Shown one piece after another: positions 29,142-33,677 of a DNA stretch of 38,348 nucleotides. The position numbers were made by a program, and so were the translations under genes. A model generated the notes under the pieces. It searched no databases. It had not been told where the DNA came from and saw only the letters and a list, made by a program, of their open reading frames with translations. Source of the DNA: a virus; IMG/VR virus record IMGVR_UViG_3300035181_000817, positions 1 to 38,348 of that record; one strand, 5' to 3'. How positions within the stretch are numbered: position 1 is the stretch's first letter; each line of letters begins with the position of its first letter.

Positions 29142-29467
29142 TCTCGCTGCTCCTTCACGCTCACCAGCTTCTCAAGGTAGTGCAGAGCCTTCTTCAAGTC
29201 TTGCAGACCGTCGCCCTTCCGGCCTGCGCGTGAGAGATACTTGATCGCGTTCCCGCGCAAAAAGCCTTCAAACTCGGCCTCGCTCATCCAAGATTCCATC
29301 GCCGCCCACGGTTGAACTGCCAGTTCCTTGTAGTGGTCGCCGCCGATCTGGTAGCTATCAGCAAGCCGGCTTTTGTTCGCGGTGTATACCGTCCCGGCGA
29401 AACGGCATGTGTCATGATGCCGTTCACCGTCTTTTGCTCCGCACTTCACACAATACAAACTGCTCAT
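29138..29467 (-). CDS. DUF3310 domain protein (nucleotide kinase-like annotation)
   Basis: 109 residues from an ATG at 29467 that overlaps the polymerase stop (ATGA). An N-terminal pair of CxxC-like cysteines (YCVKCGAKDGERHHDTC) is followed by the DUF3310 signature GGDHYKELAVQPWAAME with GNAIKYLSRAGRKG. DUF3310 proteins are widespread in phages and often annotated as SaV-like; no activity is established for this type. The Cys/His N-terminus looks like a small zinc knuckle. Confidence 0.85.
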   Translation of the reverse strand: MSSLYCVKCGAKDGERHHDTCRFAGTVYTANKSRLADSYQIGGDHYKELAVQPWAAMESWMSEAEFEGFLRGNAIKYLSRAGRKGDGLQDLKKALHYLEKLVSVKEQRE

Positions 29468-32085
29468 TTTGAATAGTTCCTTGCATATCCGCCTGCACAA
29501 TTGAGCGGCACACCTTCCGCATAGCTCGGTGCCGCACGCATCACGCACTTCGCAAACTCGAACGCCTCGTCCGCCTCGCCTTCCCGCGCCAAAAAGACAA
29601 TCTCATCGTGCGTCATAGTGACCACGCGATACTTGCTCCTGATGGCAAGCATCTGGTCGGCCACAATGTCGCGGGCGATGGCCTGAACGATGTTCTCAAC
29701 CAGCGCCGCGCCGTAGAGTCTGCGCTTGTTCGCCCCCACACCATACTCATACCCATCCGGCGTCAAGCGTAGGCTAGGATAGCGCAGCACACGGCCAGAC
29801 GGCAAGCGAAGTGTCTCGAACTCGGTCATGATGAGACGCATCCACTGGATGCGGTCGTCCTGCATCATCGCTCGCAGCATACCATCGGCACGCTTCCAAA
29901 GTCGCGTAATCGCGCCGTATGTGTTACGGTATGTAGCAACATACTGCTGCGCGTCCTCAAGAGTTGTGTCGGGCTGCTTGGTGACGATCTGCGCGTGGAG
30001 CTTGGCATGGCCGACCCCATAGCCAAGCCCCAAGATACAATTATGAACAATTATTGGCCCTTGATTCGTCATCACCATGAACCGGTTGTTCGGTCCGCAA
30101 TTGAGCAAGTCGTAGACTGGCAAGTTCTCTTTCGAGGGCGAGGATTCTTTGTGATAAATCGTTCGCCTTTCTTCGGTTTGCAACGTTTTGCTTCCGAGTA
30201 ACGAACCTGATATTCCCTGGCGCATAGGGGCCGTCAACGTCAATCCTGTCAAGCTCAAGCGTTGGATTGTCCCATCCAGGTACAGTCTGAACGTACCGGA
30301 GAAACGCTGCGCGATCCTCGCGCCATGCTGGATCAACGTAAATGCCCCTCCCACCATAACTGGGGAACGCTGCGCTCTTCGGATTGTGGCATCTACTAAT
30401 GCACGACGACAATCTGCTAAGTAGCCGCGACCTATGCGCGTCGTCTGAAAGCGCGGCTTTATATTTCCACCATCGTTTCGCCCCCGCAGCGACTTTTGCG
30501 CACGCATTGCAGCGCGTTGAACGCCCTGCAAGAATGTTTTCACGGCTAACAATACCTTCCCACCCGCATGAGCACCGGCAAACAGGGTGCCACCCTGCCG
30601 CCCGCCCAGTGCGCGACCGATGCGGCTCAAACCGGAGCACGGTAAGCTCGCCAAATCGAGCGCCGACCGGAAAAGGCCACGGTTTGACTGGACCTCTGAC
30701 CACTCCCGCCATCCAAGTCCCGTCAGGATTTCGTGGTCCTCCGTCGCGGCGATCCCGAAACGCCGGAGCGTCGGTTTGTATCCCTGAAATTGCAGCCCAC
30801 TGTGTTTTACCCATGATTCACCATCCCATACCAAGTCCATAACCGAAACTTGAACTATAGGCTTCCACCCTTTGTCAGTCAAGACTTTAGTGTCGGCTGC
30901 CAAGCAGGTTTTCCCTACGAAGCGTTTGATCTCGTCAATCTCTTCCCCCGGCCATATCCGCTCCGCGAACTTGACGTAAACGTCCTCACCTGCGGCAAAC
31001 TGCGCCAGCAAGTCATCCTGGCCAGCCAGCCACGCGAGCACGCGGGCCTCGATCTGGCTTGAGTCCACGACGACCAGCACATACCCGTCCGGGGCCGTCA
31101 AGCACTTGCGCAATGCCGAGCCTCGGTTCAGGTTCTGCATGTTCAAGCCGTCCGCGCCCGACCAGCGGCCCGTGTGTGCGCCGTAATATTTGAGCGGCAC
31201 TGGCATCGACCCGCGCCCGCTTACACCAAGAAACTTCGTCGTCCGCCGTAGCTCTGAGACGCTCTTAGCGGCCAGCCGGCCTTGGATGAGCACAGCCGCA
31301 CGCGGATCGGCTTTGAGCGCCAGCATGTCGGGATCATCCTTGCGCAGCGTCTCGGGAACCTGAACCCCACGCGCCGCGAGCACTGCGGCAAACTGCGGGT
31401 TGCTCATCAGCACGTCGAGGCTCACCCCGGATGCTGCGACAGCCGCGTCGCGCTGCGCCTCCAGCTCCGCCAGCCGCGCTTGAAGTAGCGCCGCGTCGAT
31501 CGTCAACACTGGCTCAGTGAACATGCGCACTGTGCAGTCGATCAGCGCCAGCTCACGCTTGTAGCGAATTTCTGGCAGCTCCGACCGAAGGGCGGCATCG
31601 AGCGCGTGATGCAGCTTGCGCAGCAGCTCCACGTCCTGCCTGCAATACTCGGCCAACCGCGTCTCTAGCATGGGGTCGAGGTCGCGCACACCGAGGGTTT
31701 TTACCAGCGCGTCACCCTTCGCGCCCAAGCCATATCGCTCACTCAGCGCTGCCAGGGAATGCTTACCATGCACATCAGCTAGCCGCGCCATGCTCAGTGT
31801 GTCCACGATGCGCCGCGGCCTGACGTTGTAGTGCCAGGACAGGATTGCCATATCGAACGCAGCATTGTGGGCGCACCAATATGCGTGTGAAAATCTCTCC
31901 GCGAGTTGGAGCAAGGCCGTAGACGCCGACGGGCCGGACCGCCACCAGACAGAACCATCATCGATGCAATAGGCGAACCCATGCACCTTGAACCGCGCAT
32001 CACGGATATATTCTTCCGTGGACATTTTCGACAAAGTGTAACTTTTGTCATAGTATGTTTCAAAGTCGATGTAGATTGTTGTCAA
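29464..32085 (-). CDS. Family A DNA polymerase precursor with an intein in motif B
   Basis: 873-residue precursor; after splicing about 584 residues. Proofreading exonuclease: DFET (D7, E9), HNAAFDMA (N74, D78), AEYCRQD (Y147, D151). Polymerase: motif A VVVDSSQIEAR (D341, E346), motif B EIKRFVGK joined across the intein to ILGLGYG, motif C MTHDEI (H826, D827). The intein occupies residues 394-682 and splits the fingers O-helix, so polymerase activity should require splicing. The start is TTG at 32085 with a GGAGAG site. No thioredoxin-type insert is obvious; a sliding clamp is encoded upstream at 34076. Confidence 0.93.
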   Translation of the reverse strand: MTTIYIDFETYYDKSYTLSKMSTEEYIRDARFKVHGFAYCIDDGSVWWRSGPSASTALLQLAERFSHAYWCAHNAAFDMAILSWHYNVRPRRIVDTLSMARLADVHGKHSLAALSERYGLGAKGDALVKTLGVRDLDPMLETRLAEYCRQDVELLRKLHHALDAALRSELPEIRYKRELALIDCTVRMFTEPVLTIDAALLQARLAELEAQRDAAVAASGVSLDVLMSNPQFAAVLAARGVQVPETLRKDDPDMLALKADPRAAVLIQGRLAAKSVSELRRTTKFLGVSGRGSMPVPLKYYGAHTGRWSGADGLNMQNLNRGSALRKCLTAPDGYVLVVVDSSQIEARVLAWLAGQDDLLAQFAAGEDVYVKFAERIWPGEEIDEIKRFVGKTCLAADTKVLTDKGWKPIVQVSVMDLVWDGESWVKHSGLQFQGYKPTLRRFGIAATEDHEILTGLGWREWSEVQSNRGLFRSALDLASLPCSGLSRIGRALGGRQGGTLFAGAHAGGKVLLAVKTFLQGVQRAAMRAQKSLRGRNDGGNIKPRFQTTRIGRGYLADCRRALVDATIRRAQRSPVMVGGAFTLIQHGARIAQRFSGTFRLYLDGTIQRLSLTGLTLTAPMRQGISGSLLGSKTLQTEERRTIYHKESSPSKENLPVYDLLNCGPNNRFMVMTNQGPIIVHNCILGLGYGVGHAKLHAQIVTKQPDTTLEDAQQYVATYRNTYGAITRLWKRADGMLRAMMQDDRIQWMRLIMTEFETLRLPSGRVLRYPSLRLTPDGYEYGVGANKRRLYGAALVENIVQAIARDIVADQMLAIRSKYRVVTMTHDEIVFLAREGEADEAFEFAKCVMRAAPSYAEGVPLNCAGGYARNYSK
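30040..30906 (-). mobile_element. Intein (289 residues) in the DNA polymerase gene
   Basis: First residue Cys (block A, LAADTKVLTDKGWKP), block B ATEDHEILTGLGWREW with the TxxH motif, C-terminal block F VYDLLNCGPNNRF and block G GPIIVHN, followed by Cys at the +1 extein position. All residues for protein splicing are present. In the polymerase frame the ~180 residues between blocks B and F have no recognisable domain; that DNA instead encodes an HNH endonuclease in another frame. Confidence 0.93.
30041..30814 (-). CDS. HNH homing endonuclease nested out of frame within the intein
   Basis: 257 residues, same strand as the polymerase but shifted in phase; entirely inside the intein. Residues ~45-110 (GARFGELTVLRFE..., CRCSCGWEGIV, RCNAC) are a DNA-binding and zinc-type module seen before phage HNH domains. 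The catalytic HNH region contains SSCISRCHNP, YGGRGIYVDPAWR, LDRIDVDGPYAPGNIRFVTR and QNVANRR. The ATG at 30814 has a GGTGA site; an alternative start is ATG at 30712. Its stop codon TAA (30041-30043) overlaps the intein's final His-Asn codons. It would be made as a free protein. Confidence 0.88.
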   Translation of the reverse strand: MGKTQWAAISGIQTDAPAFRDRRDGGPRNPDGTWMAGVVRGPVKPWPFPVGARFGELTVLRFEPHRSRTGRAAGWHPVCRCSCGWEGIVSRENILAGRSTRCNACAKVAAGAKRWWKYKAALSDDAHRSRLLSRLSSCISRCHNPKSAAFPSYGGRGIYVDPAWREDRAAFLRYVQTVPGWDNPTLELDRIDVDGPYAPGNIRFVTRKQNVANRRKANDLSQRILALERELASLRLAQLRTEQPVHGDDESRANNCS

Positions 32086-32388: not shown

Positions 32389-32601
32389 TTATGCCGCCCA
32401 TCGATACAGCGCCACGCGCCGGGTTCCGAGCGGCTTGATGACTTCAGCCACTTCGACCAGGCCAGCGCGGCGTAGGCGCAGCACGACGTTCGACACGCTG
32501 CGCACGGGTCGGCAAATTTCGGTTGCAATCTGCCGAATGCTGCGCGGCTCAGGCGCGTGCATCAGCAGATCGGCGACAAGGTAGACAGTTCGAGGGGTCA
32601 T
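32389..32601 (-). CDS. Small winged-helix DNA-binding protein
   Basis: 70 residues, start at ATG (ATGA overlap with the repeat protein upstream). SIRQIATEICRPVRSVSNVV is a helix-turn-helix and LRRAGLVEVAEVIKPLGTRR the wing, as in MarR-like or small phage regulators. It could control the early-to-late switch; there is no direct evidence. Function is inferred from the fold pattern. Confidence 0.7.
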   Translation of the reverse strand: MTPRTVYLVADLLMHAPEPRSIRQIATEICRPVRSVSNVVLRLRRAGLVEVAEVIKPLGTRRVALYRWAA

Positions 32602-33677
32602 CGCTCGATCCTCTTCGGACACCACGTCGCGGCCACGATGTTAGCAAACCCTAGGTATTGCAGACACTTAAGCTCGTTACCATCGGCGCGAACCTTTGCG
32701 CGGAACGCATCCAGATCGCCCGAAAAGCACCCGGCCTCAACCCAGGGGCCGCCCTCGACGTTGAACGCGTAGACCGTTCGATTGCCGCTGCCAGCGCCGG
32801 ACAGGGCCAGCAGCGGATAGCCCGGTTTTGCGCGTTTCCCACCGAAGAAACACCCACTGCCGAAGGTGCAACGCCCGCCGAAGCGGCAAGCCTTGCCGAA
32901 GCTGCAAGACCCGCCGAAGCTGCAAGACCCGCCGAATCTGCACCCAAACCCGAAGCTGCAAGACTTGCCGAAGATGCAAGACTTGCCGAAACTGCAATAC
33001 TCCTCAAAGGCGCAAGCCGTGTCGAAGCTGCACCACTCTCCGAAACTGCAAGACGCGCCGAAACTGCAAGACTCGCCAAAACTGCAACGCCCGCCGAAGC
33101 TGCAATAATCGCCGAAGCTGACCCCACTACCGAAGTGGCACGCACCATCGAAGTTGCACCCACGGTCGAACTCGCATTCGCTGCCGAAGCTGCAACGCCT
33201 ACCGAAATAGCACTCATCGCCGAAGCTGCAAGACTCGCCAAAACTGCAATCCTTGCCGAAACTGCATAAATAGCCGAAACCGCAAGACTTTCCGAAACTG
33301 CAAGACTCGCCAAAACTGCAAGACTCGCCAAAACTGCACTCGTCTCTAAAACTGCAACGCTTACCGAAACTGCAAGACTCATCAAAGCTGCAAGACTCGC
33401 CGAAGACGCAATACTCGCCGAAACTGCAATACTCGCCGAAGATGCAAGAATTACCGAAACAGCAATACTCGCCGAAACTGCAACGCTTACCAAGGTTGCA
33501 ACGATCACCGAAGTTGCATTGCTCGCCGAATTTGCAATCCTCGCCAAAAGTACAAGACGCGCCGAAACTGCAAGACGCGCCGAAACTTTGTACTTGCGAG
33601 TAGTCGCCAGTCGGGCACTGCCGAACTCCGTCCACCATCGGCAGGGCGTCAAACTCTGCTTGCGTAAAAACTCTCAT
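32598..33677 (-). CDS. Hexapeptide-repeat protein with cysteine ladder (predicted left-handed beta-helix)
   Basis: 359 residues, preceded by GAGGA. After a 30-residue N-terminus (MRVFTQAEFDALPMVDG), residues 31-282 consist of 42 consecutive six-residue units of consensus CSFGES, with Phe-Gly at fixed positions and Cys at the sixth. Forty units have Cys, one has Val (GSGV), and the last breaks off. The periodicity fits the left-handed beta-helix (three units per turn, so 14 turns); Phe and Cys would stack inside. A distinct C-terminal domain (YPLLALSGAGSGNRTVYAFN, GCFSGDLDAFRAKV) follows. Function unknown. I do not recognise a named family. Confidence 0.8.
   Translation of the reverse strand: MRVFTQAEFDALPMVDGVRQCPTGDYSQVQSFGASCSFGASCTFGEDCKFGEQCNFGDRCNLGKRCSFGEYCCFGNSCIFGEYCSFGEYCVFGESCSFDESCSFGKRCSFRDECSFGESCSFGESCSFGKSCGFGYLCSFGKDCSFGESCSFGDECYFGRRCSFGSECEFDRGCNFDGACHFGSGVSFGDYCSFGGRCSFGESCSFGASCSFGEWCSFDTACAFEEYCSFGKSCIFGKSCSFGFGCRFGGSCSFGGSCSFGKACRFGGRCTFGSGCFFGGKRAKPGYPLLALSGAGSGNRTVYAFNVEGGPWVEAGCFSGDLDAFRAKVRADGNELKCLQYLGFANIVAATWCPKRIER
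32832..33587 (-). repeat. 18-bp coding repeat array, 42 units
   Basis: The DNA behind the hexapeptide domain. Units share the codons for Cys-Ser-Phe-Gly. Units vary too much for slipped-strand identity, so they look old and under coding constraint. Confidence 0.88.

Follow-up and report, generated by a model that had tools for sequence, protein, structure and literature searches.

The DNA considered here is an IMG/VR virus record (IMGVR_UViG_3300035181_000817) of 38,348 bases, referred to below as the window. Its polA gene (29464..32085), which lies on the minus strand together with all the features of this locus described below, encodes a family A DNA polymerase with exonuclease and polymerase parts, as judged from matches to the Pfam families DNA_pol_A (1e-21) and exo1 (4e-9) and to the PHROG DNA polymerase profile (2.5e-87). 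The gene is a single open frame that includes an intein of 289 codons (30040..30906, polA amino acids 394-682), running from Cys1 to His288-Asn289 and followed by a +1 Cys. Nested within the intein coding sequence, in the +2 frame relative to polA, is an open reading frame (ORF) of 257 amino acids for an HNH endonuclease (30041..30814). This phage and hundreds of related phage sequences have an out-of-frame HNH gene inside a DNA polymerase intein.

The boundaries of the intein were set by empty sites. The N-extein (30907..32085) ends with ...RFVGKT, and the C-extein (29464..30039) starts with CILGLGYG in the region of polymerase motif B. Both junctions were derived from three relatives devoid of the intein (L007, L008 and L010), in which exactly 867 bp fewer are present between ...GKT and CILGLGYG; the polymerases of L007 and L008 are about 91% identical to that of the window, and that of L010 is 61-64% identical. 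Intein-bearing and intein-free forms are both present in a single metagenome (3300037010). The order within the window intein is CLAADTKVLT...GIAATEDHEILT...VYDLLNCGPNNRF...GPIIVHN, then the +1 Cys, with block A at 30877-30906, block B (GIAATEDHEILT, containing T55 and H58) at 30721..30756, and blocks F and G (VYDLLNCGPNNRF ... GPIIVHN) at 30040..30117. C1, T55, H58 and N289 are invariant in the intein alignment and H288 is nearly so (at least 90%); the other invariant positions of this frame are T6, T10, G13, W27, D28, G29, G37, G42, W66, D266, G271 and one central Gly, and the +1 residue is Cys or Ser in all loci listed. The window element has a nucleophile at position 1, TxxH, terminal His-Asn, the +1 residue and an exact empty site, all of which are sequence marks of an intein. 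The inteins of L128 and L150 end with Ser-Asn instead of His-Asn, an ending seen also in several inteins whose HNH lies in register +1.

Structure prediction gave a consistent picture. In the AlphaFold2 model of the intein, confidence (predicted local distance difference test, pLDDT) is about 96 at amino acids 1-88 and 255-289, and about 30 at amino acids 89-254. The predicted structure has a Hint fold, for which Foldseek returned the mini-inteins Ssp DnaB, Mtu RecA and gp41-1 with a probability of 1.0, and the N-terminal splicing half (30643..30906, amino acids 1-88) was in addition linked to the Mtu RecA intein by a profile search. The poorly modelled part, an open spacer in the intein frame (30145..30642), is where the HNH domain is encoded in the other frame. 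By sequence and by fold the element is an intein, but not a canonical bifunctional one. Pfam gave no name to either the intein or the HNH in the window. The match of PHROG_93, a family labelled 'endonuclease', covers polymerase residues 413-746 and concerns the intein frame, not that of the HNH; the label may derive from intein proteins.

The product of the nested ORF matches PHROG_374 (HNH endonuclease) with E=9.7e-33 over amino acids 51-217. In its AlphaFold2 model, the stretch before residue 50 is disordered or weak, and residues 51-245 (30080..30664) are folded. The folded part has invariant columns and contains the zinc-ribbon cysteines C81/C83/C102/C105, followed by D189, R190, N201 and N210. 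A Shine-Dalgarno-like GGTGA (30818..30822) is located 3 nucleotides 5' of the ATG, within the DGE codons of the intein, and it contains a TGA that is read as a stop in the HNH frame. The TAA stop of the ORF (30041..30043) is composed of the last base of CAT (His288) and the first two bases of AAT (Asn289), and the same offset of 1 bp relative to the intein end recurs in many relatives. In this way block B is overlapped by the HNH leader, and blocks F and G by the HNH C-terminus. A preliminary description of the window, made from its sequence alone, had proposed this arrangement, namely intact splicing blocks in the polymerase frame, a complete HNH ORF in another frame with its own ATG and GGTGA, a stop overlapping the last two intein codons, and blocks B and F/G read in both frames; the conserved blocks, the Hint fold, the 867-bp empty sites and the PHROG_374 match bear it out. 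Longer inteins (364 amino acids) with an HNH ORF of 287 amino acids in unchanged register are present in L153 and L157, which suggests that both frames tolerate coordinated insertions.

The nesting is not peculiar to the window. Contigs from four metagenomes (L001-L004) carry the intein and the conserved nested HNH in the identical register, with both frames open. Among cultured phages, it is present in Jerseyvirus, Dhillonvirus and MR14. Nesting in register +2 was found in the records of MR14, Vibrio 97.13, EBPR siphovirus 2, Shigella EP23, Sodalis SO-1, Salmonella LDDK01 and UPWr_S2, and in register +1 in those of APSE-7, Gardnerella AB1 and Streptococcus Javan255; an HNH more than 80% identical to that of LDDK01 occurs in 163 phage records. 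A scan with the HNH alignment yielded 80 viral and 17 genome loci, in register +2 or, in a more distant group of mostly Clostridia-type contigs, +1, and the host frame is open across the HNH in all the viral loci and in 16 of the 17 genome loci. Another survey started from the intein: matches to the intein motif, some of which were cut by contig ends or proved to be unrelated proteins, were searched with the HNH profile over all three frames. It produced 123 distinct complete HNH-bearing inteins, 90 of them in register +2 and 33 in register +1; no in-frame HNH was encountered in this survey, frame 0 being included in the scan. The HNH is intact in 121 of these inteins and contains a stop in 2. 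The preliminary description, according to which an out-of-frame HNH is nested in a genuine intein, therefore underestimated the extent of the phenomenon, which involves two registers and several insertion sites.

Members of the same intein family differ in their content. Mini-inteins of 125-151 amino acids devoid of the HNH were found in L275, L316, L321, L345 and L381. In L165, L227 and L299, a stop breaks the HNH frame and the frame of the intein and host is still open, an apparent decay of the endonuclease alone. One polymerase (L214:2411-6403) contains two inteins with nested HNH genes, one in register +2 (amino acids ~530-819) and the other in +1 (amino acids ~945-1253). The +1 class occurs also within SNF2/Helicase_C helicases (L277, L310, L378), and the arrangement thus extends beyond polymerases. 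In public annotation the element has been described in other terms: in the GenBank record of SO-1 (L089) gp38/gp39 are assigned to a 'type I self-splicing intron', gp39 being the nested HNH, and in SS3e (L387) the region is annotated as pol-HNH-pol, with the polymerase split around the nested HNH.

Maintenance of both frames was examined by shuffling synonymous HNH codons over the HNH-domain stretch in 73 non-redundant loci. No intein-frame stop is present there, compared with about 255 expected (199 in the 65 loci of register +2 and 55 in the 8 loci of register +1), and this holds across GC (guanine plus cytosine) contents of 39-62%; the unused third frame contains 9-11 stops on average. When host codons were shuffled instead, 2-7 stops per locus were expected in the HNH frame. 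A chance shadow ORF was rejected on the basis of HNH homology, conservation and the codon shuffling. Selection for a hydrophilic spacer was not supported, the spacer being slightly more hydrophobic than expected (0.276 vs 0.225).

The positions of substitutions in 19 close pairs tell how the two frames share the DNA. In the HNH domain, HNH position 3 accounts for 559 of 864 substitutions; as this is host position 2, they change the host residue. Host position 3 takes 284 of 416 substitutions in the N region of the intein and 69 of 105 in block F/G, and the substitution rate is lowest in the overlap of block B with the HNH leader (0.056 vs 0.123 and 0.086). Constraint acts on the HNH frame in the centre and on the intein frame in the splicing blocks; of the two protein sequences encoded in the centre, only that of the HNH is conserved, and the intein frame is just kept open there. 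The structural models suggest the same division, as the predicted fold of each protein lies mostly where the other one is unfolded. The preliminary description slightly overstated the double constraint: both frames are free of stops and the HNH is conserved, but of the intein frame nothing beyond its openness is conserved outside the splicing blocks. The comparisons suggested there had the following outcome: profile and fold searches led from the HNH frame to PHROG_374 and from the intein frame to Mtu RecA and mini-inteins, polymerases lacking exactly the intein were found, and codon-position patterns separated the two constraints.

The way in which the HNH could be translated is indicated by its start codon. 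In register +2 the ATG arises from an A-ending codon preceding a conserved TGG (Trp), or from a GTA-TGC pair. It is present in 64 of 65 such loci, compared with 27.7 expected from host codon usage, and A precedes the first conserved TGG in 38 of the 65 loci but in only 123 of the 815 TGG codons used as controls (P=4e-14). For the 8 loci of register +1 the corresponding test is not significant (8 vs 6.7). A Shine-Dalgarno match of at least 4 nucleotides is located upstream of the ATG in 43 of the 65 loci, typical start sites being GGTGA-N3-ATG and AGGAGTGGGTATG. Since the TGA within GGTGA belongs to the HNH frame in the window, ribosomes that shifted frame upstream would terminate there. This stop and the start-codon data make internal initiation the preferred route, and the HNH is probably translated from its own ATG.

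Several observations point to mobility of the element. The N-extein of L002 differs by 9.6% from that of the intein-free L007 and by 14.6% from that of the window, and its intein differs by 3.9% from the window intein. Across the class, HNH domains are up to 71-72% identical while the exteins are 30-33% identical, and the insertion points of related HNHs lie a few residues from one another. Among Dhillonvirus sequences, 9 records cover at least 80% of an intein-plus query, and most Escherichia records match it in two pieces around a gap; in the cultured pair HK578 and SO-1, exactly 299 codons are absent in HK578 and the exteins are 92% identical. Presence/absence polymorphism is thus found, and so is horizontal transfer from one homologous site to another. 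Both are marks of a homing element, and together with the discordance of exteins and inteins they indicate homing.

We consider it highly probable that the window contains a mobile polymerase intein with a homing endonuclease gene nested out of frame in its coding sequence. The architecture, the open frames, the pattern of conservation, the conserved start codon, the exact empty sites and the horizontal movement are all established at the level of sequence. According to the proposed mechanism, the polymerase frame would give one precursor protein, in which the first ~88 and the last ~35 intein residues would form the Hint domain whose self-excision restores the polymerase. The ~166 residues between the Hint halves would be a translated spacer, the sole requirement for which is the absence of stops. 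The same messenger RNA would also be read in the +2 frame from the internal ATG, whose Shine-Dalgarno-like site lies within (L/V)WDGxxWV, a conserved motif of the intein, giving a separate zinc-ribbon/HNH endonuclease. The presumed target of this enzyme is motif B in polA alleles devoid of the intein, and the whole unit of intein and HNH would be copied into the cut allele.

A broader reading, towards which we lean slightly, is that the whole class of these inteins, at several polA sites as well as in SNF2-type helicases, is obligately nested, with the HNH always out of frame. It would further imply that the two registers had independent origins or switches, that the WDGxxWV motif has a double role, being a piece of the splicing domain and also supplying the endonuclease with its ribosome-binding site and start codon, and that the arrangement may originate when a free-standing HNH gene invades a mini-intein loop, selection keeping the host frame open.

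A number of points weigh against the proposed mechanism. Splicing, HNH translation and cleavage of the polA site are inferred. The HNH core reads DRID...N201...N210, a DRxD...N...N variant devoid of His at the first catalytic position, and literal H-N-H catalytic residues were not found in the invariant columns; of the coherent HNH motif claimed in the preliminary description, the relation to PHROG_374 stood and the literal motif did not. There is no convincing Pfam match for this protein, and a fold search of the PDB with its model gave no significant match. With the first His missing, the protein is a putative nuclease; the invariant residues and the zinc cysteines argue for a function. About one third of the loci have no Shine-Dalgarno match of at least 4 nucleotides upstream of the ATG. 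The survey covers a single intein motif, that of the clade with WDGxxWVxH, and not all inteins, and the codon tests count related loci as independent, by which their significance is inflated.

Among other explanations, an ordinary in-frame HNH intein shifted by two indels in this contig, whether by mutation or by assembly error, would agree with the textbook arrangement of inteins and with the ability of HNH domains and inteins to shuffle. As independent copies exist, it is refuted and we assign it practically no likelihood: four more contigs have the identical register, isolate genomes carry the same nesting, and none of the 123 distinct inteins, nor any other relative found, has the HNH in frame, so that a local frame error is excluded. 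Hardly more credible is a group I intron with an HNH ORF, as the GenBank record of SO-1 would have it. Rfam detected no group I ribozyme core: the window region gave no match at E<=1, and seven related loci gave none at gathering scores. Every locus can be read through the insertion in the polymerase frame without a stop, the intein blocks are conserved, and a Hint fold is predicted. The insertion might instead be retained unspliced as a loop, with the HNH as its only functional part, as proposed for the ShiLan insertion; out-of-frame HNH genes in non-splicing insertions have been described (PMC11855218), and splicing is here predicted from sequence. Nevertheless, Cys1, the TxxH of block B, His-Asn and the +1 Cys are conserved under host-frame constraint, and a retained loop of 289 amino acids in the essential motif B region should kill the polymerase, which makes this explanation very unlikely.

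Production of the HNH as a polymerase-intein-HNH fusion through programmed ribosomal frameshifting, and not from its own start, is a somewhat less remote but still improbable alternative. Register +2 is equivalent to -1, and some HNH ORFs are open far upstream of the ATG; on the other hand, register +1 occurs too, the HNH-frame ATG is conserved above codon expectation, and an in-frame stop lies 1-3 codons 5' of the ATG in many loci and within GGTGA in the window. Finally, the HNH could be a degenerate passenger, or not home to polA, the intein persisting by splicing alone. This we regard as unlikely: broken HNH copies with an open intein frame do exist and the first catalytic His is replaced, but 121 of the 123 distinct copies are intact, substitutions are biased to HNH position 3, and the presence/absence polymorphism and discordant divergence speak for movement.

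Several known systems resemble the mobile nested intein proposed here. The closest published case is the ShiLan domain, or Pacc40 gp60 insertion, with an out-of-frame HNH in phage methylases (Arsenault, Gosselin, Gogarten 2025, PMC11855218). Like the window element, it is an insertion in a phage gene in which the host frame is open and the HNH lies in the other frame, and which moves between phages. It differs in that it has no splicing motifs or intein fold and resides in a dispensable methylase; it was explicitly stated to be no intein and to have no detectable ribosome-binding site (PMC11855218). The window element is a true intein with splicing blocks and an embedded start, and it resides in a DNA polymerase. 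Group I introns with HNH ORFs, an example being the one with I-PfoP3I that interrupts the DNA polymerase gene of a phage (PMC3428280), likewise combine an endonuclease ORF with a self-removing insertion, but they are removed at the RNA level, whereas protein splicing is predicted for the window element, and removal in this manner requires that the host frame stay open.

Canonical bifunctional inteins also unite a Hint domain and a homing endonuclease (LAGLIDADG or HNH) in one mobile element. Their endonuclease is in frame and is a part of the spliced intein, while that of the window element would be a separate product of another frame; in all 123 inteins the HNH was in register +2 or +1. Mini-inteins (Ssp DnaB M86, the Mtu RecA splicing domain) share the predicted Hint fold and the absence of an in-frame endonuclease, but have a short linker, in place of which the window intein has one of ~166 codons that is the shadow frame of the endonuclease gene. 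In fractured genes, which are split genes with split inteins and a free-standing endonuclease between them, a separately translated endonuclease likewise lies between two intein halves. The host gene is in that case divided into two pieces, whereas polA is one uninterrupted ORF overlapping the endonuclease. In the open-licence literature that we searched, out-of-frame HNH genes appear only in the ShiLan methylase work and in a similar genome announcement of 2025, and we found no account of a genuine intein with an endonuclease out of frame, an earlier description being possible in subscription literature.

In another part of the window, at 32598-33677 on the minus strand, a protein of 359 amino acids is encoded that consists largely of six-residue CSFGES-type repeats and has weak matches to PHROGs of unknown function.

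In models of intein evolution, the endonuclease is fused in frame and its later loss gives rise to a mini-intein. If an HNH gene indeed invaded a mini-intein loop, in-frame fusion would not be a required stage of this evolution. The nested inteins represent a common and transferable alternative in well-studied phage genera, in which the splicing domain and the endonuclease share DNA but not protein, and a selfish nuclease could be expressed independently of the protein that its gene interrupts. They also offer a tractable system for the study of dual-coding evolution, one in which constraint is cleanly divided. Nested ORFs tend to be discarded in annotation, and such endonucleases are being missed for that reason. 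In E. coli, Dhillonviruses with and without the intein form pairs in which homing of the element is directly testable.

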